NCBI RefSeq assembly: GCF_023074835.1 | Contig: NZ_JALLGW010000001.1 | Span: 2,790,001-2,854,000, forward strand | Reading direction: 5' to 3' | DNA from: Halomarina salina | Lineage (GTDB): Archaea > Halobacteriota > Halobacteria > Halobacteriales > Haloarculaceae | DNA length: 64,000 nucleotides | The notes under the pieces: generated by a model | Database searches by the model: none | The model's input: the letters and a program-made list of their open reading frames with translations, nothing else | Told to the model about the DNA's origin: nothing | Made by a program: the position numbers and the translations under genes | Shown here: positions 42,585 through 52,671 of the stretch, piece after piece | How positions within the stretch are numbered: position 1 is the stretch's first letter | How the letters are laid out: the number at the start of each line of letters is the position of its first letter

Positions 42585-45500
42585 ATGCAACCACCAGACG
42601 ACTGGCAAAGACAGACAATAGCGATACTGTTGTCAACACTCATAGTCATCTCAACTGCAGCGACAGGAATCGCCCTGGCCGCCAGCGGTGTGGGAGCAGC
42701 GGTAGAGAGTGGGCAAACGCACGCAGACCCCACAACAACCGAGCAAGGAAACTATGTGGGGGTAGGATCCGGGACCTCCCAATCCACTGCGCCGATTAGT
42801 GGGAATGGAATAAACGATTTCTCACTTATCCAGCAAACGAGTGCTATCGGATTCGAGTCAACTACACTCGGTACGAATGTCAACAACCCGACTGACCTCC
42901 AGTTCGGTCCCGACGGACGCCTCTACGTCGCCCAGCAGAGGGGCGTGATCAAGGCGTTCGAAATCGAGCGACAGGGTCCAGAGGACTACGTCGTGACGAG
43001 TACGGAGACGATCACCGCGATCAACAACCTCCAGAACCACAACGACGACGGTTCCACCAACGGCGTCCCCGGTGACAGGCAGGTCACGGGAATGCTCGTC
43101 ACGGGCACAGCGGACGACGTGGTGCTCTACGTGACGTCGAGCGACCCCCGCAGTCGGTCGAGTCCCGTCTCGGACCGCTCTGACGCGCTGGACACCAACT
43201 CCGGGGTCCTGTCGAAGCTCACCCAGGACGGTAACTCGTGGAACCATATCGCACTCGTCCGCGGCCTGCCGCGGTCGACTGAGAAACACTCCACAAACGA
43301 CCTGATACTGGATGAGGAGACGGGCAACCTGTTGATCTCTCAGGGTGGCAACTCGGGATCCGGCGCCCCGAACGACGAGTTCACCTTCACCCCCGAGTAC
43401 GCCTACTCGGCGGCGATTCTCAGCGTCGACGTGGACGCGGTCGAGGGGATGTCTACCAAGACCGACACGGGGAACGTCCCCTACAAGCACGACCTCCCAA
43501 CGCTGAATCCGAGCGTTTCTCAGGCGCCCGACAGTACTCCGTTCGGTGGTATGGGTGGCCAGAACATGGCCGTCTGGGAGAGCAACAGCCCGGTTCAGGT
43601 GTACGCGACCGGCCTTCGCAACTCCTACGACATCACTCAAACCGAAGACGGCACTCTGTACGCGACCGATAACGGCGTCGGTGGCGGCTGGGGCGCGCCG
43701 CCGGTGAATGAGGGTACCAACAGCTGCCTGAACGAACCAGTCAGTGAGGGCAACCCAGAGGATGAGGATCAGATCCACCTGATCGAGGAGGATGGCTACT
43801 ACGGCCACCCGAACCCAACCCGCGGTAACCCCGACGGCGCCGGCCTCTACGAAGCCGAGTCTGACGGGGCGCAAATCGGATCGGACGATATTCTCTCCGG
43901 TGCGGTTCCCTCGGCGAACCCAATCGAGTGTGACTACCAGGAGCCTGGTTCGGAGGACGGCGCGGTCGAGACGTTCGGCATGTCCACGAACGGTATCCAC
44001 GAATACACCGCGTCGAACTTCGACGGCGCGATGCAGGGCGACCTGCTTGCGGCTGGACTGAGCGGACCGATATTCCGCGTCCAGTTGAACAGTGACGGCA
44101 CCTCGGCAACGGATACCAGCGAGATCTTCACGAACAATGCTGGTCCGCTGGACATCGAGGCACAGGGCGACGAGGATCAGTATCCCGGAACGGTATGGGT
44201 CGCTGATATCTACGGGAGCAGCATCAACATCTATGAACCAAACGATTACGACGGCAGCGGTGCGGTCTGTGACCCGAGCGACCCGAGCGGCGACGCCGAC
44301 GGGGACGGGTTCACGAACGGTGACGAACAGGCAGTCGGAACCGACCCATGTTCGTCGGCAAGCCAGCCTGGTGACTGGGACGAAGATGGGAACCCGAACG
44401 CGTTAGACGACGATGACGACAACGACGGTCAGCCCGATACGTCCGACCCGTTCGCGCTTGACCCGGATAACGGTGCCACGACGCAGGTTGTCACCGACTG
44501 TCCGGCTGACCCAGAGGACTCGGCCGAGACGTGCCTGACCTTCTCCGGCGAGAGCTTGGACAGGACCAGCCTGTTCGGACTCGGGTTCACGGGTCTAATG
44601 ACGAATGGACAGGACGACTACGCTGATCTGTACGATCGAAGTAAGATCCAAGCAGGCGGTGCAGCCGACATCTTCGGTATCGAAGAGGTCACCGGCGACG
44701 GCAGTGCCTTTGGCAGTGACGATGACCAGCGTCAGGGGTTCCAGTTCGGGATGGCACCTCCCGACGAGCCGTTCGTGGTCCATGGTGAAATCACGAACGG
44801 GTTCAACGGTGAGGTCCCGCCGGAATACTGGAACTACGGCATCTTCCTTGGCACCGGTACCCAGGCTGACTACACGAAGTTGGTCATCGGGTCGAACGGT
44901 GGGAACGGTGGCGAAATCGAGTACGCTGTCGAGGAAAGTAACTCGGCATCCAACACCCAGCTTCCGGAAGACGGTGTCATCGGCGGTACGGTCGACCTCT
45001 ACATCACCGTCGACCCGACCACCGATCCCGTCACGGTCACGTACGAGTACGCTATCGACGGCGGGGAACGAATCGAGGTGGGGACCGAAACGATTCCCTC
45101 CTCGTGGGTGAGCGGAGACTCGATGGCGGTTGGGGTCATCCCAACGGCCACGGGCGCTTCGGGCACCTACTCTGCGAACTACAACGAACTTGAGGTCGAA
45201 CTCGTCGCGGAGTCCAGCGCTAGCGACCCCGAGGCAAGCGTCGCCATCACCCCGAACAGTGGGGTCGACGCGAGCACGTTCAGTAACGACGGGTTCCAGA
45301 TCGAGAACACTGGCGACGTCGACATCACGTCCATCTCGATCGACACGGAGACGACGATTCTGCCGGATCTCGTCTACGACCCTGCGGGGACTGCCGGCGA
45401 CGGCGGTGACAAAAGCTTCGAGCTCGGCTCCGAATCGGACGACGTCGGTGTCGTCTCGACGGCCGACGCCGACCTGTTCGACGAGCCGAAGAACGGCCAG

Positions 45501-48500
45501 AACAGCGAGGACGGCTACCAGCGTCTGACCGTCGGGTTCACCGACTTCCAGCCCGGCGAGACGCTCCTGTTCGGCTCCGACGGGGACCCGACGTCCATCA
45601 AGGGAAGTGGCGATGCACAGCAGACCGAGGCCGGCCCAGTCTCCGGCGCGGAGCTGGCAGGCGCGACCATCACGGTTCAGTTCGCGGACGGTACGACCGA
45701 GACGATTCGGACGTTCGGCGATGGCAGTGCCGGCGGCTCGACGGTCGTCACCAGCGCCGACCAGTCGACCGCACCGACGCTCGACGTTCAGAACGTTCAG
45801 CTCGATTCGAACGCGCTCGACGCCCGCCACAGCGCAGCGACGGTCTCTGAGACGAGCCAGACGCTCACCCTCAGCGGACCCGCAGGCGCGACGGTTCAGG
45901 TCATGCAGGCGAACACCGAGCTGAATCTGGTGGACGTACCCGAGTACGACGGGACGCCCGGCTACAACGTCGAGCCCTACGAGGGCAACAACTTCGTTGA
46001 CGTCACCTACCACACGGTGACGCTCGGCTCGGACGGCATCGGGACGGTCGACGTGACGGTGCCCGACGCCGACGACCAGCAGGCCTACTTCATGGCCGCA
46101 ATCGAGAATGACGACGGCACGATGGGAGCTCCCTCGAACGTCGTCGTCCTCGAACAGGGCCAACCCGACGACGGAAGCGGCGACACGCCGACCGACGGCG
46201 AAGCCATCTACCGCGTCAACGTCGGTGGTTCGGAACTAGCGGCTATCGACAGTGGCGCTGCCTGGGAGTCGGACACGAACAACGACCCATCCCAGTACCG
46301 CACCAGCGCGGGATCGGACGAAAGCCAAGAGAGCGGTCCTGACGGCGACACGGTGACGCTGCAGAGCGTCGTCCCGGACAGCACGCCTCAGGACCTCTAT
46401 CAGTCGACCCGGTATGACCCGGCCGATGGTTCGGAGATGCAGTGGGCCTTCCCGGTCCAGTCCGGCGAGACCTACGAGATTCGCGTATACGTCGCAGAGA
46501 CGTACATCGATAGCACGTACACGGACGAACCGCGCGAATACGATGTCACCGTCGAGGGCCAGACGGTCCTTGACAACTACGACATGTATCAGGAACTCGG
46601 CCACGATGTCGGGTCGGTGAAGACCTTCGAGGTCACGCCAACTGACGGCACGCTGAACCTCGAGTTCCTCCACGAATCTGAGAACCCGATGATCGCGGGG
46701 CTCGAAGTCGTGCAACTGAGTGACGGCGGCGGTAACACGGCGCCAACGATCGATCCGATTAGCGACCAGACGGTCACCGAGGGTGACTCGACGACGGTTC
46801 CGGCCACTACGTCGGATGACGACGGCGACACGGTGTCGCTGTCGCTCGGTCAGTCGCCGGATTTCGTCAGCCTCTCGAACGGCGAACTGACGATCGCCCC
46901 GCAGTCGGGCGATGCCGCGAATTCGCCGTACACGGTCGAAGTCATCGCTGACGATGGCACCGACCAGACTACCGAAACGTTCCAGGTCACTGTGGAGTCC
47001 AGTGACGGTGGCACGGCCGATGGCGAGGTCGTCTACCGCGTCAACGTCGGTGGACCGGAGCTATCGGGGTCGCCAGTGTGGGCACAGGACGAGGACGGCT
47101 CCCCGAGCCAACACCTCGTGACGACCGATACGTCTTTCTCGGACTTCGGCGGTGCGGTCGACGAGAAAGCGTCCAACGTGCCTCAGGACGTCCCGCTCGA
47201 CGTCTACAACTCCGCGCGGTACATCAACACCGATAACCAGCAGACCTCACAGTCGATGGACTGGGAGTTCAACACCCAGCAGGGGGCGACCTACGAGGTC
47301 CGCCTCTACTTCGCCGAGCCCTACTTCGGCGGGTCCGGTCCAGCCCAAGAGGGCGCTCGGCAGTTCCACGTCGACATCGAGGGCGAGCGCAAACTCGAGA
47401 ACTACGACATCTACGCTGATGTCGGCTTCGGTACCGGCACGATGAAGACGTTCACCGTTACGTCCGACGGGACGCTCAACGTCAACCTCGTCGACGGAGC
47501 GGCGAACAACCCCATCGTGAGCGGCATTGAGGTTGTGCAGTTGGGTGATGGCGGCGGGAACACGGCGCCAGCGATCGACGCAATCAGCGACCAGACGGTC
47601 ACCGAGGGTGACTCGACGACAGTCTCGGTCACTACGTCGGACGATGACGGCGACGCGGTGTCGCTGTCGCTCGGTCAGTCGCCGGAGTTCGTCAGCCTCT
47701 CGAACGGCGAACTGACGATCGCCCCGCAGTCGGGCGATGCCGCGAATTCGCCGTACACGGTCGAAGTCATCGCCGATGATGGCACTGACCAGACCACCGA
47801 AACGTTCGAAGTCGCCGTTGAAGTACCGGCAGGTACTACGCCTGAGGCATCGGTTTCGATCACCCCGAACAGCGGGGTCGATGCAACCACCTGGGACAAC
47901 AACGCCTACCAAATCGAGAACACCGGTGACGTCGAGATTACGTCGATTTCGATCGACACGGACACGACGATCCTACCCGACCTCGTCTACGATCCGTACG
48001 GTACGGCTGGTGACGGTGGCGACAAGAGCTTCCAGGCCGGCTCCGGGTCGGACGACGTCGGTGTCGTATCGACGGCCGACGCCGACCTGTTCGACAAGCC
48101 GAAGAACGATGCCAACGGCGACGATGGCTTCCAGCGGCTCACCTTGGAGTTCACCGACTTCCAGTCCGGCGAGACGCTGACGTTCGGCTCGGACGGCGAC
48201 CCGACGTCCATCAAGGGCGCGGAGAACGACGTCCAGAGCACACTCGCCGGTCCCGTCTCGGGTGCTGAACTCGCGGGCGCGACCATCACGGTCGAGTTCG
48301 CGGACGGTACCACCCAGACCGTTCGGACGTTCGGCGATGGCAGTGCCGGCGGCTCGACGGTCGTCACCAGCGCCGACCAGTCGACCGCACCGACGCTCGA
48401 TGTCGAGGGCGTCTCGCTTGATTCGAGCGCACTCGACGCTCGCCACAGCGCCGCCACGGTCAGCGACACCGAACAGACGCTCACCGTCACTGGTCGCGAC

Positions 48501-49022
48501 AACACGGCAGTCCTGGTGATGCAGGCGAACACCGAACTGAACCTCGAAGGCGTACCCGAGTACGACGGGACGCCCGGCTACAACGTCGAGCCCTACGAGG
48601 GCAACAACTTCGTCGACGTCACGTACTACTCGGTGTCGCTCGGCTCGGACGGCATCGGGACGGTCGACGTGACGGTGCCCGACGCCGACGACCAGCAGGC
48701 CTACTTCATGGCCATTGAGAACGACGACGGGTCGACGAGTGCGCCTTCGAACGTCGTCGTCCTCGAACAGGGCCAACCCGACGACAGCGGCCCCGGTCCG
48801 ATTGGCGAGTTCGCAAACGCCCCGGCCGACCCCGACGGTGACGGCCTCTACGAGGACGTCAACGGCGACGGCTCGGTGGACGTTGGCGACGCACAGGCAC
48901 TATTCGCGAACAACGACGACCCGGTCGTCCAGAACAACGTCGACGCGTTCGACTTCAACGGTGACGGCTCGGTAGACGTTGGTGACGCGCAAGCGCTGTT
49001 CGCGAGCATTGGGGGGACCTGA
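42585..49022 (+). CDS. Giant secreted sugar-dehydrogenase/malectin/dockerin protein
   Basis: A 2145-residue protein with a signal peptide (TIAILLSTLIVISTAATGIALA). Domains in order: a PQQ-type sugar/sorbosone dehydrogenase-like propeller (about 82-549, e.g. NPTDLQFGPDGRLYVAQQRG); a Ca-binding Asp-rich stretch (DADGDGFTNGDE); a lectin/laminin-G-like domain (650-875); module A (884-1190, beginning EASVAITPNSGVD); malectin 1 (1205-1379, YRVNVGG); a cadherin-like domain (1385-1474); malectin 2 and cadherin-like 2 (1479-1749); a second module A (1750-2070); and a C-terminal dockerin (2081-2145) with two EF-hand-like DVNGDGSVDVGDAQALF repeats. Malectins bind carbohydrate, and the dockerin should dock onto a cohesin, both of which the next genes offer. 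Confidence 0.85.
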   Translation: MQPPDDWQRQTIAILLSTLIVISTAATGIALAASGVGAAVESGQTHADPTTTEQGNYVGVGSGTSQSTAPISGNGINDFSLIQQTSAIGFESTTLGTNVNNPTDLQFGPDGRLYVAQQRGVIKAFEIERQGPEDYVVTSTETITAINNLQNHNDDGSTNGVPGDRQVTGMLVTGTADDVVLYVTSSDPRSRSSPVSDRSDALDTNSGVLSKLTQDGNSWNHIALVRGLPRSTEKHSTNDLILDEETGNLLISQGGNSGSGAPNDEFTFTPEYAYSAAILSVDVDAVEGMSTKTDTGNVPYKHDLPTLNPSVSQAPDSTPFGGMGGQNMAVWESNSPVQVYATGLRNSYDITQTEDGTLYATDNGVGGGWGAPPVNEGTNSCLNEPVSEGNPEDEDQIHLIEEDGYYGHPNPTRGNPDGAGLYEAESDGAQIGSDDILSGAVPSANPIECDYQEPGSEDGAVETFGMSTNGIHEYTASNFDGAMQGDLLAAGLSGPIFRVQLNSDGTSATDTSEIFTNNAGPLDIEAQGDEDQYPGTVWVADIYGSSINIYEPNDYDGSGAVCDPSDPSGDADGDGFTNGDEQAVGTDPCSSASQPGDWDEDGNPNALDDDDDNDGQPDTSDPFALDPDNGATTQVVTDCPADPEDSAETCLTFSGESLDRTSLFGLGFTGLMTNGQDDYADLYDRSKIQAGGAADIFGIEEVTGDGSAFGSDDDQRQGFQFGMAPPDEPFVVHGEITNGFNGEVPPEYWNYGIFLGTGTQADYTKLVIGSNGGNGGEIEYAVEESNSASNTQLPEDGVIGGTVDLYITVDPTTDPVTVTYEYAIDGGERIEVGTETIPSSWVSGDSMAVGVIPTATGASGTYSANYNELEVELVAESSASDPEASVAITPNSGVDASTFSNDGFQIENTGDVDITSISIDTETTILPDLVYDPAGTAGDGGDKSFELGSESDDVGVVSTADADLFDEPKNGQNSEDGYQRLTVGFTDFQPGETLLFGSDGDPTSIKGSGDAQQTEAGPVSGAELAGATITVQFADGTTETIRTFGDGSAGGSTVVTSADQSTAPTLDVQNVQLDSNALDARHSAATVSETSQTLTLSGPAGATVQVMQANTELNLVDVPEYDGTPGYNVEPYEGNNFVDVTYHTVTLGSDGIGTVDVTVPDADDQQAYFMAAIENDDGTMGAPSNVVVLEQGQPDDGSGDTPTDGEAIYRVNVGGSELAAIDSGAAWESDTNNDPSQYRTSAGSDESQESGPDGDTVTLQSVVPDSTPQDLYQSTRYDPADGSEMQWAFPVQSGETYEIRVYVAETYIDSTYTDEPREYDVTVEGQTVLDNYDMYQELGHDVGSVKTFEVTPTDGTLNLEFLHESENPMIAGLEVVQLSDGGGNTAPTIDPISDQTVTEGDSTTVPATTSDDDGDTVSLSLGQSPDFVSLSNGELTIAPQSGDAANSPYTVEVIADDGTDQTTETFQVTVESSDGGTADGEVVYRVNVGGPELSGSPVWAQDEDGSPSQHLVTTDTSFSDFGGAVDEKASNVPQDVPLDVYNSARYINTDNQQTSQSMDWEFNTQQGATYEVRLYFAEPYFGGSGPAQEGARQFHVDIEGERKLENYDIYADVGFGTGTMKTFTVTSDGTLNVNLVDGAANNPIVSGIEVVQLGDGGGNTAPAIDAISDQTVTEGDSTTVSVTTSDDDGDAVSLSLGQSPEFVSLSNGELTIAPQSGDAANSPYTVEVIADDGTDQTTETFEVAVEVPAGTTPEASVSITPNSGVDATTWDNNAYQIENTGDVEITSISIDTDTTILPDLVYDPYGTAGDGGDKSFQAGSGSDDVGVVSTADADLFDKPKNDANGDDGFQRLTLEFTDFQSGETLTFGSDGDPTSIKGAENDVQSTLAGPVSGAELAGATITVEFADGTTQTVRTFGDGSAGGSTVVTSADQSTAPTLDVEGVSLDSSALDARHSAATVSDTEQTLTVTGRDNTAVLVMQANTELNLEGVPEYDGTPGYNVEPYEGNNFVDVTYYSVSLGSDGIGTVDVTVPDADDQQAYFMAIENDDGSTSAPSNVVVLEQGQPDDSGPGPIGEFANAPADPDGDGLYEDVNGDGSVDVGDAQALFANNDDPVVQNNVDAFDFNGDGSVDVGDAQALFASIGGT

Positions 49023-49155
49023 TCAGTCTCCACGTTATCCCGGATCGGGTGGGTGTCACTCCAGAGGACCACCCCGCCGTCCCGACCTGGGCGACCGCTG
49101 CACGTCACGCAGTGACTCTGACACAAACGAACAACACACAATCCAAACCACAGCA

Positions 49156-51264
49156 ATGACACAAACACATCGAAAAGCGCGTCAGGTACTAGCGCTGATG
49201 CTGGCGGTCACGGTTATCCTATCGACGACCACCGGGTTCGTCGCCGCCGCGACATCGACTGACCTGACGGCTACAATAGCTGGAGACAGCACCGTCGCTC
49301 CCGGTCAGACAGCGACAGTCGAGATCGCGGTCACAGACGTCGATGGCGGCGTCGGTGCTGCGGACTTCGGCGTTGAATTGAGCTCCCCTGGCGTCGCCAC
49401 AATCACGGACGTTTCAGTGGAGAATGCCGGAAGCTCGAACAATGAGGTTGCCAGTGACGGTCAGTCGGCCAATCTGCAGTATGCCTTCGCCGATACCACC
49501 GATACCGGTAGTATCGTTATCGCAGAGGTGACCGTGCAGGCTACTGCCGAGGGGACGACCGACATCGAAATCGGTTCGAGCAGCAACACCGGTAACCTCG
49601 TCGTCTACGACGAGAATGGGGCAGGCTACACAGTCGACTCCGTCGGAAGTGCGACATTGACGGTTGAAAATGTCAATCAGCCCCCCACCGCAGACGCGGG
49701 CGACGACCAGACTGTCGGCGCAGGCGATACCGTGAGCCTCGACGGCTCCGAATCGACGGATCCGAACCCGGAAGACACGCTCGACTACGAGTGGTCCCAG
49801 GTTGGCAATGGGCCGCAGGTGACACTGAGCGACAACATGGTCGACAATCCCACGTTCACCGCCCCAGACGTTACGTCTGCGACCACGCTGACGTTCGAGC
49901 TTCTCGTCACGGACGATGACGGGGACGCGTCGACCGACACGGTCGAAGTGACGGTCCAGCCGCCGGACGCAGCGTTCTACGAACTGTCGAACCTGCAGGC
50001 ACCCGGAAGTGCCACGCAGGGTGATAACATCGACATCTCTATCGATGTCGAGAACACTGGCGGTCAGACAGCCACGAAGAACGTCGAGTTCCGTGTCGAC
50101 ACGGACGATGACGGCTCGATTGCAGATGAGAGCGCGCTCACTTCCGAGAGCGTCCAGCTTGGGCCCGGTGCCTCGACTACTGTCAGCTTCGACGATGTCG
50201 ACACGAGCGGGCTTCCGACAGGCACGCTCACGCACGGTGTCGTGACGGCTGACGACAGCGCGGTTGCACAGATTACAATCGAAGAGCCACCAGAACAGCC
50301 GACCAAGGCAACGACGGTGAGCTTCCAGCCCACCGACGCGTCGACCGCAGTTGGCGTCTCCACCACGTACCAAGTCGTGGTTGACAGCGCCCAAGGTGGC
50401 GTCGGTGCTGGCGAGTTCCGTATTGCTGTCGATGACTCTGCAATCGCGCAGATCACCGATGTGAACGTCCTCGGAAGCGGGTCGACCAGCACAGAACTCG
50501 CGAGTGATGGGTCCTGGGTAGATGTCGACTACGCATTCCGGGACACCCCAGAGACGGGGAGCGTTGTATTTGCGGAGGTGACCGTTGAAGCTACCAGTGC
50601 CGGAACGACCAGTCTCGGCATTGAACCAGCCGCTGGAAACAGTGATGTGCTCCTGTTCGATGAGGAAGGGGCCGGATACACTGTGACCGGTACTAGCGGG
50701 TCGAACCTGGAGGTAGTGGCGGTGGAGTTCCTCGTCGACAACATTGATGCTCCCGAGAAAGCAGCTGTTGGGAGCACAATCAGTGTCAACGGTCAGGTGA
50801 CGAACGACGGAAGTGTCGAGAGTACCCAGCCTGTCGAACTGTACCTCGACACGAACGGAGACGAGATCCTCGAACTCGTCGAGACGAAGCAGGTGACCAT
50901 CGATGCTGGGGAGACAGTCACCGTTTCGTTCGACGTCGACGTGCCCGCTAATGCTCCGTTCGGCGACCACGAGTACGGCATCGTGACATCCGTCAACTCG
51001 GCGACCGGATCCATCGAGTTCACCCCCCCAGCCGTCAGCGAGAATCAGCCTCTACCCGGCGACCTCGACGGTGACGGTCTATTCGAGGACGTGAATGGTG
51101 ATGGTCAGGCAAACGTCGGTGACGCACAGTCGCTCTTCAGTAATCGCGACGATGCCGCCGTCCAGCAGTACGTAGCACAGTACGACTTCAACGACGACGG
51201 TGTCGTGAACGTCGGTGACGCACAGGCACTGTTCTCCCTCATCACAGGGAGCGATGACAGCTAA
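49156..51264 (+). CDS. Secreted scaffold-like protein with two cohesin-like domains and a dockerin
   Basis: A 702-residue protein; ATG 49156 opens a signal peptide (VLALMLAVTVILSTTTGFVAAA), while the longer frame from 48979 is non-coding. Order: cohesin-like 1 (residues about 30-170, VDGGVGAADFGVELSSPGVATITDV); a PKD-type domain (GDDQTVGAGDTVSLDGSEST); a CARDB-like domain; cohesin-like 2 (about 380-520, SAQGGVGAGEFRIAVDDSAIAQITDV); a second CARDB-like domain; and a C-terminal dockerin (DVNGDGQANVGDAQSLF, then DFNDDGVVNVGDAQALF). Having both cohesin and dockerin, it could bridge the giant protein and the stalked protein at 51286. Confidence 0.85.
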   Translation: MTQTHRKARQVLALMLAVTVILSTTTGFVAAATSTDLTATIAGDSTVAPGQTATVEIAVTDVDGGVGAADFGVELSSPGVATITDVSVENAGSSNNEVASDGQSANLQYAFADTTDTGSIVIAEVTVQATAEGTTDIEIGSSSNTGNLVVYDENGAGYTVDSVGSATLTVENVNQPPTADAGDDQTVGAGDTVSLDGSESTDPNPEDTLDYEWSQVGNGPQVTLSDNMVDNPTFTAPDVTSATTLTFELLVTDDDGDASTDTVEVTVQPPDAAFYELSNLQAPGSATQGDNIDISIDVENTGGQTATKNVEFRVDTDDDGSIADESALTSESVQLGPGASTTVSFDDVDTSGLPTGTLTHGVVTADDSAVAQITIEEPPEQPTKATTVSFQPTDASTAVGVSTTYQVVVDSAQGGVGAGEFRIAVDDSAIAQITDVNVLGSGSTSTELASDGSWVDVDYAFRDTPETGSVVFAEVTVEATSAGTTSLGIEPAAGNSDVLLFDEEGAGYTVTGTSGSNLEVVAVEFLVDNIDAPEKAAVGSTISVNGQVTNDGSVESTQPVELYLDTNGDEILELVETKQVTIDAGETVTVSFDVDVPANAPFGDHEYGIVTSVNSATGSIEFTPPAVSENQPLPGDLDGDGLFEDVNGDGQANVGDAQSLFSNRDDAAVQQYVAQYDFNDDGVVNVGDAQALFSLITGSDDS

Positions 51265-51285
51265 CGACAACATATTCGACAATCC

Positions 51286-52671
51286 ATGAAACCAAATCCA
51301 ATGAGGAAGTATCTGAAAGGGGGAAGCATCACGCTCATCGCGGCGATGCTCGTCCTCTCATCGATGATCGCTGGCGGCGTCCTCGCTGCCGGTGGAACAA
51401 CGGTTAGTATCACCCCTGCAACAGAATCGGTAGATGTGGGCGATTCGACGACGGTTCAAGTCGTTGTCGACAATGCGAATGGAGGCGTCGGCGCCGCCGA
51501 AGTCGGACTCGCAATTGGTGATTCGAGTGTGGCCACAATTACTGACGTGTCTGTCCTTGGATCGGGAAGCGAAGTCGTTGATATCGCAGCAGACGGGTCG
51601 TCTGCTGACGTTGAGTACGCCTTCCGGGACACTGCCGCCTCCGGTACGGTCCCAATAATCGAAGTCACCGTTACCGGCGAAGCGGACGGTGAGACGGAGC
51701 TCTCACTCGAAGCCGCTGCCGGAAACGATGGCGTCCTAGTGTTCGACGAGAATGGGATGGGCTACGATGTCACCAGTACGAGTGGCACCACCCTAACGGT
51801 CGGCGAAGGCCCATCTGACGAAACGCCAACCGAAGAGCCAACTGAGGAACCCACTGAAGAACCAACCGAGGAACCAACAACCGAGGAACCAACAACCGAG
51901 GAACCAACGACCGAAGAGCCAACTGAGGAACCCACTGAAGAGCCCACCGAAGAACCCACTGAAGAACCAACCGAGGAACCAACAACCGAGGAACCAACAA
52001 CCGAGGAACCAACGACCGAAGAGCCAACGACTGAGGAACCGACCGAAGAGCCAACGACTGAAGAGCCAACGACCGAGGAACCAACGACTGAGGAACCAAC
52101 GACTGAGGAACCGACCGAGGAACCAACGACTGAGGAACCGACCGAAGAGCCAACGACTGAAGAGCCAACGACCGAGGAACCAACGACCGAGGAACCAACG
52201 ACCGAGGAACCAACGACTGAGGAACCAACGACTGAGGAACCGACCGAGGAACCGGCTGAATACCCCGAGAGCGAGGACACCTACTACCAGGTCGACTTTG
52301 TTGTCGGCGAGCCCAAGAGTCAGGTCGGCCCTGACGCAGGGTTCTACAGCGACGACGAGCGACTCATCAGGTTCGCTCACGGCGTCAACGGTGAACAGAC
52401 CAGCAGTGGATCCGTTCCATCACTCGGAGCGGACGCAGCCGCGTGTCTTGACGCTGAGTACATCACGACCGACGGCGACACCGCTAGCGTCTCGTTCACC
52501 GTCGAAGAGGGCTGTGAACTCACGTTGAGTCTCGTGAGCTACGAGAAGCCTGGTGCAGGCTTCGACCGAAGTGTCACTCAGGAGATGGTCGATGCATCGA
52601 CCAGCACCTTCGGTCCAGGTGAGTACACGCTCACCGTTGACGTGCCGACATCGGACGACGATACGGCCTAG
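51286..52671 (+). CDS. Secreted single-cohesin protein on a Thr-Glu-Glu-Pro stalk
   Basis: A 461-residue protein with a signal peptide (ITLIAAMLVLSSMIAGGVLAA); Met at 51301 is an alternative start. Residues about 35-170 form a cohesin-like domain (VVVDNANGGVGAAEVGLAIGDSSVATITDVSVLGSG) close to those of the preceding gene. Residues about 180-324 are some thirty TEEP/TTEEP units, a rigid, acidic stalk that could span the S-layer. The last 135 residues (YQVDFVVGEPKSQVG to the C-terminal EYTLTVDVP) form a globular domain with two Cys. No sorting signal or C-terminal helix is seen, so cell attachment is uncertain. Confidence 0.85.
   Translation: MKPNPMRKYLKGGSITLIAAMLVLSSMIAGGVLAAGGTTVSITPATESVDVGDSTTVQVVVDNANGGVGAAEVGLAIGDSSVATITDVSVLGSGSEVVDIAADGSSADVEYAFRDTAASGTVPIIEVTVTGEADGETELSLEAAAGNDGVLVFDENGMGYDVTSTSGTTLTVGEGPSDETPTEEPTEEPTEEPTEEPTTEEPTTEEPTTEEPTEEPTEEPTEEPTEEPTEEPTTEEPTTEEPTTEEPTTEEPTEEPTTEEPTTEEPTTEEPTTEEPTEEPTTEEPTEEPTTEEPTTEEPTTEEPTTEEPTTEEPTTEEPTEEPAEYPESEDTYYQVDFVVGEPKSQVGPDAGFYSDDERLIRFAHGVNGEQTSSGSVPSLGADAAACLDAEYITTDGDTASVSFTVEEGCELTLSLVSYEKPGAGFDRSVTQEMVDASTSTFGPGEYTLTVDVPTSDDDTA
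51822..52257 (+). repeat. TEEP/TTEEP-coding tandem repeat
   Basis: Units of 12 and 15 bases coding T-E-E-P or T-T-E-E-P, about thirty in all, inside the stalked cohesin gene. The low-complexity DNA is likely to change length by slippage. Confidence 0.9.

Follow-up and report, generated by a model that had tools for sequence, protein, structure and literature searches.

A dockerin-cohesin gene triad in the haloarchaeon Halomarina salina as a probable relay for displaying a giant propeller-malectin protein

The DNA analysed here, referred to as the window, is a stretch of 64,000 nucleotides of the Halomarina salina genome (contig NZ_JALLGW010000001.1, positions 2,790,001 to 2,854,000). Three co-directional genes lie close together in it, separated by intergenic gaps of 133 and 21 bases, and all three open reading frames announced in the original prediction are present. 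The encoded proteins, which we call P1, P2 and P3, each begin with a signal-peptide-like hydrophobic segment at the N-terminus, and their domain layout points to proteins built for end-to-end coupling on or near the cell surface. The features of the triad, in window coordinates, are the following.

42585..49022, + strand: P1, 2145 aa, secreted; in order, signal peptide, six-bladed sugar-dehydrogenase-type propeller, TSP3-like Ca region, uncharacterised residues 641-880, a 315-aa module (duplicated), two malectins with cadherin-like spacers, C-terminal dockerin
42705..44504, + strand: P1 propeller segment (residues 41-640), a PQQ-sugar-dehydrogenase superfamily propeller plus TSP3-like repeats
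45225..46169, + strand: P1 repeated module, copy 1 (residues 881-1195)
46206..46721, + strand: malectin 1 of P1 (about residues 1208-1379; PF11721)
47022..47546, + strand: malectin 2 of P1 (about residues 1480-1654; second stretch of PF11721, or PF12819 at 1528-1651)
47841-48782: P1 repeated module, copy 2 (residues 1753-2066)
48828..49001, + strand: P1 dockerin, two EF-hand repeats, GDAQ class
49156..51264, + strand: P2, 702 aa counted from the ATG, adaptor scaffold; in order, signal peptide, cohesin, PKD, CARDB, cohesin, CARDB-like, dockerin
49270..49665, + strand: P2 cohesin 1, N-terminal, GAA class (profile 121 bits), homologous to the modelled P3 cohesin
50317..50715, + strand: P2 cohesin 2, GAG motif (profile 135 bits)
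51061..51234, + strand: P2 dockerin, GDAQ class
51286..52671, + strand: P3, 461 aa, terminal cohesin protein; in order, signal peptide, cohesin, TEEP/TTEEP stalk, C-terminal P3C domain
51403..51801, + strand: P3 cohesin, GAA class, modelled with AlphaFold
51826..52253, + strand: TEEP/TTEEP tandem repeat of P3 (Tandem Repeats Finder), an acidic Pro-rich stalk
52270..52668, + strand: P3C domain, about 130 residues, unnamed

The flanks of the triad (window positions 31261-62298, triad excluded) are mobile-element surroundings, with a homing-endonuclease-type HNH repeat protein and IS605/TnpB-like genes downstream, and an S8 peptidase and, farther out, a TraG-like ATPase upstream. No conserved neighbours were found outside the triad, so that the genomic context gives no hint of function. 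Relatives in Haloarcula pellucida, Halobellus rarus and Haloarcula sp. JP-L23 put the window in the Halobacteria. In the public record of the last of these, the homologous cluster comprises four genes, each of them annotated as hypothetical.

The sugar-dehydrogenase propeller proposed for P1 is confirmed. The GSDH family (PF07995) scores a weak 16.5 bits in a scan of full-length P1, but reaches 25.8 bits when the propeller segment is scanned by itself, and 16 of 18 homologues match it. A model of the segment, of modest confidence (pLDDT 67), matches PQQ sugar dehydrogenases (Foldseek 1c9u, E 1.3e-16; structural aligner VIA, Z 29.3 to 3a9g), and its Arg-Asn motif, aligned to 2ism, is invariant. 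By family match and fold, the propeller is a member of the PQQ sugar dehydrogenase (GSDH) superfamily and a putative enzyme; HHIP, which shares its fold and superfamily, is not known to be an enzyme. The two malectins are likewise found (PF11721, E 1.6e-34), and given the propeller and the malectins a carbohydrate-related role of P1 is likely, P1 probably being a sugar-binding or sugar-oxidising protein. The two copies of the 315-residue module are 82.5% identical to each other, which suggests a recent duplication or gene conversion.

Dockerins had been predicted in P1 and P2, and both are recovered by the Pfam dockerin model PF00404: in P1 at residues 2089-2138 with 27.1 bits (cut-off 22.9), and in P2 at residues 644-692 with 19.6 bits for the protein alone and 27.2 bits with its frame neighbours. 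Against a haloarchaeal dockerin profile they score 99.6 and 89.8 bits, respectively. In each, both Dx[N]xDGxxxxxD calcium loops are intact, and both proteins show the PF00404 match and the two calcium-binding EF-hand-like repeats of a type I dockerin.

The three predicted cohesin-like domains share 41-57% identity when compared with the first of the three. They are missed by the Pfam cohesin model PF00963, which the original prediction had named for checking them. This model matches none of the three and nothing elsewhere in the genome, and it detects 4 of 63 relatives (best E 1.5e-4), these being the 63 diverse members used for the alignment of the family. The defining feature of a cohesin is its fold, the Pfam model being a detection aid; since PF00963 is silent on the window proteins, membership rests on fold and profiles. 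The AlphaFold model of the P3 cohesin (pLDDT 97.4, pTM 0.90) has the nine-stranded jelly-roll fold of cohesins. The 50 Foldseek matches listed for it are cohesins alone, among them 6kgf_C (E 8.5e-8) and the archaeal 2xdh of Archaeoglobus fulgidus, and VIA aligns 122 residues to 6kge_A at 2.1 A (Z 14.7). Profile-profile comparison links the family, with a probability of 85% (E 6e-6), to haloarchaeal cohesins of the PF00963 type, and a PDB sequence search with the family profile gives weak matches, headed by two R. flavefaciens cohesins (E 0.17 and 0.25). Together, the modelled fold and the profiles support the assignment of the window domains as cohesins. A generic Ig-like fold, the outcome that would have spoken against the original prediction, was looked for and is absent, and generic Ig-like domains were rejected on the fold of the P3 model. 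P2, a secreted chain that is non-catalytic and combines two cohesins with a dockerin, has the make-up of a scaffoldin.

When 391 genomes of the class were searched with a cohesin profile built from the three window domains, relatives were found in 109 of them, so that the family is widespread in haloarchaea. Dockerins are present in 61 of the 64 genomes with strong cohesin matches (E up to 3e-12) versus 112 of the 327 others (p 2e-21, shared ancestry ignored).

Both domains were mapped in 60 relative loci. These loci were picked for holding cohesins, and the overall count of junctions is consequently partly ascertained: in about 50 related loci, 58 of 78 adjacent same-strand junctions bring together an upstream C-terminal dockerin and a downstream N-terminal cohesin, while 16 have neither domain, three a dockerin alone (two of them start-codon miscalls with overlapping frames) and one a cohesin alone (Fisher p 9e-13 over all 78, shared ancestry ignored). 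The junction between P1 and P2 is a less biased subset, as loci were not selected on it. Here 11 cases have both domains, 16 neither, and the single discordant case is a start-codon miscall (p 5.6e-7, shared ancestry ignored); a P1-type protein that lacks the dockerin is followed by a protein that lacks the N-terminal cohesin. On the P1 tree the dockerin and cohesin states change jointly five times at most, at least three of these changes falling on well-supported branches, and effects of shared ancestry partly remain in both the junction and the tree counts.

The best evidence that a dockerin-cohesin pair may rejoin the halves of a protein comes from three loci (L082, L095 and L096) in which a P1-type protein is split into two genes. 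L082 is a second cohesin/dockerin cluster of four genes (C2) in the same H. salina genome. Its front gene corresponds to residues 65-1464 of a homologue that is a single chain in locus L094, with 69% identity, and its back gene aligns to residues 1537-2030 of the same chain. At the break the front protein carries a dockerin (residues 1420-1477) and the back protein a cohesin (residues 41-171), both of which are absent from the one-chain protein, and the break in the P1-type gene of L095 and L096 is comparable. The C2 cluster is present twice in the genome, at C2:408.7-414.7 kb and 448.6-454.6 kb, the two copies being shifted by a constant 39,918 bases; either a large segment was duplicated recently or the repeat is an artefact of assembly.

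A different view would treat the dockerins as domains that bind substrate or calcium, and the beta-sandwich domains as generic surface modules with no functional relation to them. This view agrees with published descriptions in which haloarchaeal dockerins take part in binding substrate (PMC10963439, PMC13260240), but is highly improbable in the face of the cohesin fold, the concordant junctions, the split genes and the co-occurrence across genomes.

The TEEP stalk foreseen for P3 is present. It is not C-terminal, and joins the cohesin to a further domain of about 130 residues, absent from the original prediction, that we call P3C. The last cohesin protein of the related loci ends in a C-terminal membrane helix in 29 cases (8 of these PGF), in P3C in 9, the window included, and otherwise in 15. 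P3, which has neither a C-terminal membrane helix nor a PGF-CTERM motif, thus differs from most terminal cohesin proteins, which end in a membrane helix. P3C occurs in 10 copies in its own genome and 29 in another (G121), on many otherwise unrelated haloarchaeal secreted proteins and mostly at or near the C-terminus; a search with the family returned nothing in Pfam or PDB. It is a candidate surface-retention or sorting domain, by which P3 may be attached to the surface.

Taken as a whole, the triad probably encodes a non-covalent relay, running from dockerin to cohesin, which would display P1 away from the cell. P3, with its cohesin, stalk and P3C domain, would form the base nearest the cell. 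The dockerin of P2 would dock into the P3 cohesin and that of P1 into the N-terminal cohesin of P2, in both cases presumably in a calcium-dependent manner, so that the giant propeller-malectin protein would be held at a distance from the cell. The original prediction was of one ordered chain of stalk, scaffold and enzyme. Its multi-protein chain is supported by fold, synteny, co-occurrence, joint gain and loss, and split genes, and its strict order appears likely, not unique, on the basis of gene order and homologues.

Sequence classes of the two domains, which were set after the data were seen, bear on this order. Where GDAQ follows the calcium loop of the dockerin, the cohesin it faces is GAA in 10 of 11 cases, and other dockerins mostly face GAY, GAL or GAI cohesins (covariation table 10/1/4/45, p 1.4e-7, shared ancestry ignored); a third class, an ADAQ dockerin with a GTT cohesin, is found in one genus. 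Three successive tiers are class-matched throughout in L085 and L086. In L090 the P1 dockerin agrees in class with the first of the two P2 cohesins, and the second belongs to the other class. In the window both dockerins are GDAQ and the cohesins GAA, GAG and GAA, nearly one class, so that the order is not forced by class. A distance-correlation test in the mirror-tree style (overall r 0.42; within-locus shuffles mean 0.32, with 67 of 2000 reaching the observed value) is marginal and confounded by orthology, and is consequently not relied on.

An alternative arrangement is that P2 chains with itself, its dockerin binding the cohesins of further P2 molecules so that a head-to-tail filament grows from P3; P1 would then be an optional addition, capping the filament or branching off its side. 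P2 combines cohesins with a dockerin, and in the window their classes are compatible. Furthermore, profile searches of three whole genomes (G289, G217 and G219) find one dockerin and two cohesins in each, so that the internal cohesin of P2 can there have only P2's own dockerin as its partner. Against this, the internal P2 cohesin in L090 and L091 is a different motif variant (GAYD/GAYS), unlike the first cohesin, and a cohesin beside a dockerin could serve as a structural X-module. We regard self-chaining as possible though rather unlikely, and retain the ordered relay from P3 through P2 to P1 as the preferred reading.

The triad had also been labelled cellulosome-like, which would imply a multi-enzyme complex for the degradation of polysaccharides. 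The module pair and the tiered layout are the same, dockerin-bearing haloarchaeal polysaccharide degraders have been reported (PMC10963439, PMC13260240), and a GH10 xylanase-type protein with a related, C-terminal haloarchaeal dockerin is encoded elsewhere in the genome (L083:3538-5727, + strand, contig C3). However, the triad contains no glycoside hydrolase and one putative enzyme, and the P2 scaffold holds two cohesins only. The dockerin proteins found in the genome are the two of the triad, three in the duplicated C2 cluster, one beta-propeller protein (BNR-type) and the one GH10 protein. A cellulosome-like complex is consequently improbable, and as a functional name "cellulosome" was rejected for want of an enzyme set. 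No cohesin gene lies beside the GH10 gene, whose product may have its docking partner among the cohesins of the genome.

Two further arrangements were observed. In a third system of the same genome (L084:3710-7122, contig C1 at 1.93 Mb), the gene for the BNR-type beta-propeller dockerin protein overlaps that of a cohesin-P3C protein by 4 bases. In another genome (G355, L122, C103:1-19500), seven dockerin proteins are clustered, six of which also carry cohesins, and three of them are alike, with 435-442 aa and a cohesin followed by a dockerin; this cluster is a possible adaptor array.

More broadly, the junctions between dockerin and cohesin may be a general haloarchaeal device by which giant surface proteins are cut into separately secreted pieces and rejoined non-covalently outside the cell. 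Tiers would be added by insertion or duplication of a junction made of dockerin, stop, signal peptide and cohesin, the classes would keep the order, and adaptors might chain into filaments. We hold this proposal tentatively, as somewhat short of an even chance. The relay would supply haloarchaeal dockerins with likely partners, which are silent in Pfam and "hypothetical" in the public record of a close relative, and would give archaea a tiered scaffold layout. It would also offer a set of natural orthogonal pairs, probably functional in molar salt, and natural cases of split proteins in which the evolution of cohesin-dockerin modularity is directly testable.

Archaeal cohesins and dockerins as such are already known, from A. 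fulgidus and from ANME archaea (PMC9012536). No published account of the present cohesin family or of a tiered relay was found in a search that mostly covered papers outside subscription. Some haloarchaeal genomes with PF00963-type cohesins (L112, L113 and L116) have a similar arrangement, a large cohesin and dockerin protein followed by a small cohesin protein; these cohesins are a separate sequence family, absent from the H. salina genome. The A. fulgidus cohesin (2xdh) is archaeal and non-cellulosomal and has the same fold as the P3 cohesin (Z 13.9), and the A. fulgidus pair has served as a working cohesin-dockerin couple (PMC6394049, PMC12484212). From A. fulgidus a few isolated modules are known, whereas in haloarchaea we find a lineage-wide family and ordered multi-gene chains.

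The ANME archaea have proteins resembling scaffoldins, in which a dockerin is joined by as many as five cohesins (PMC9012536). Their cohesins are found there by standard domain libraries, whereas the haloarchaeal family escapes Pfam; the accessible text of that paper describes no dockerin-cohesin relay over successive gene junctions, and cites Peer et al. 2009 for archaea without multi-cohesin scaffoldins.

With the bacterial cellulosomes (CipA/SdbA of C. thermocellum; ScaA-ScaB-ScaE of R. flavefaciens) the haloarchaeal set shares the cohesin fold, the duplicated EF-hand dockerin, and the succession of tiers from a dockerin protein through a scaffold with cohesins and a dockerin to a terminal cohesin protein. 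Unlike them, it has few cohesins per scaffold, no CBM3 and no battery of glycoside hydrolases, and its cohesins escape PF00963. Furthermore, its terminal proteins carry a C-terminal helix/PGF-CTERM or P3C, in contrast to the SLH domain or sortase signal of the bacterial cellulosomes.
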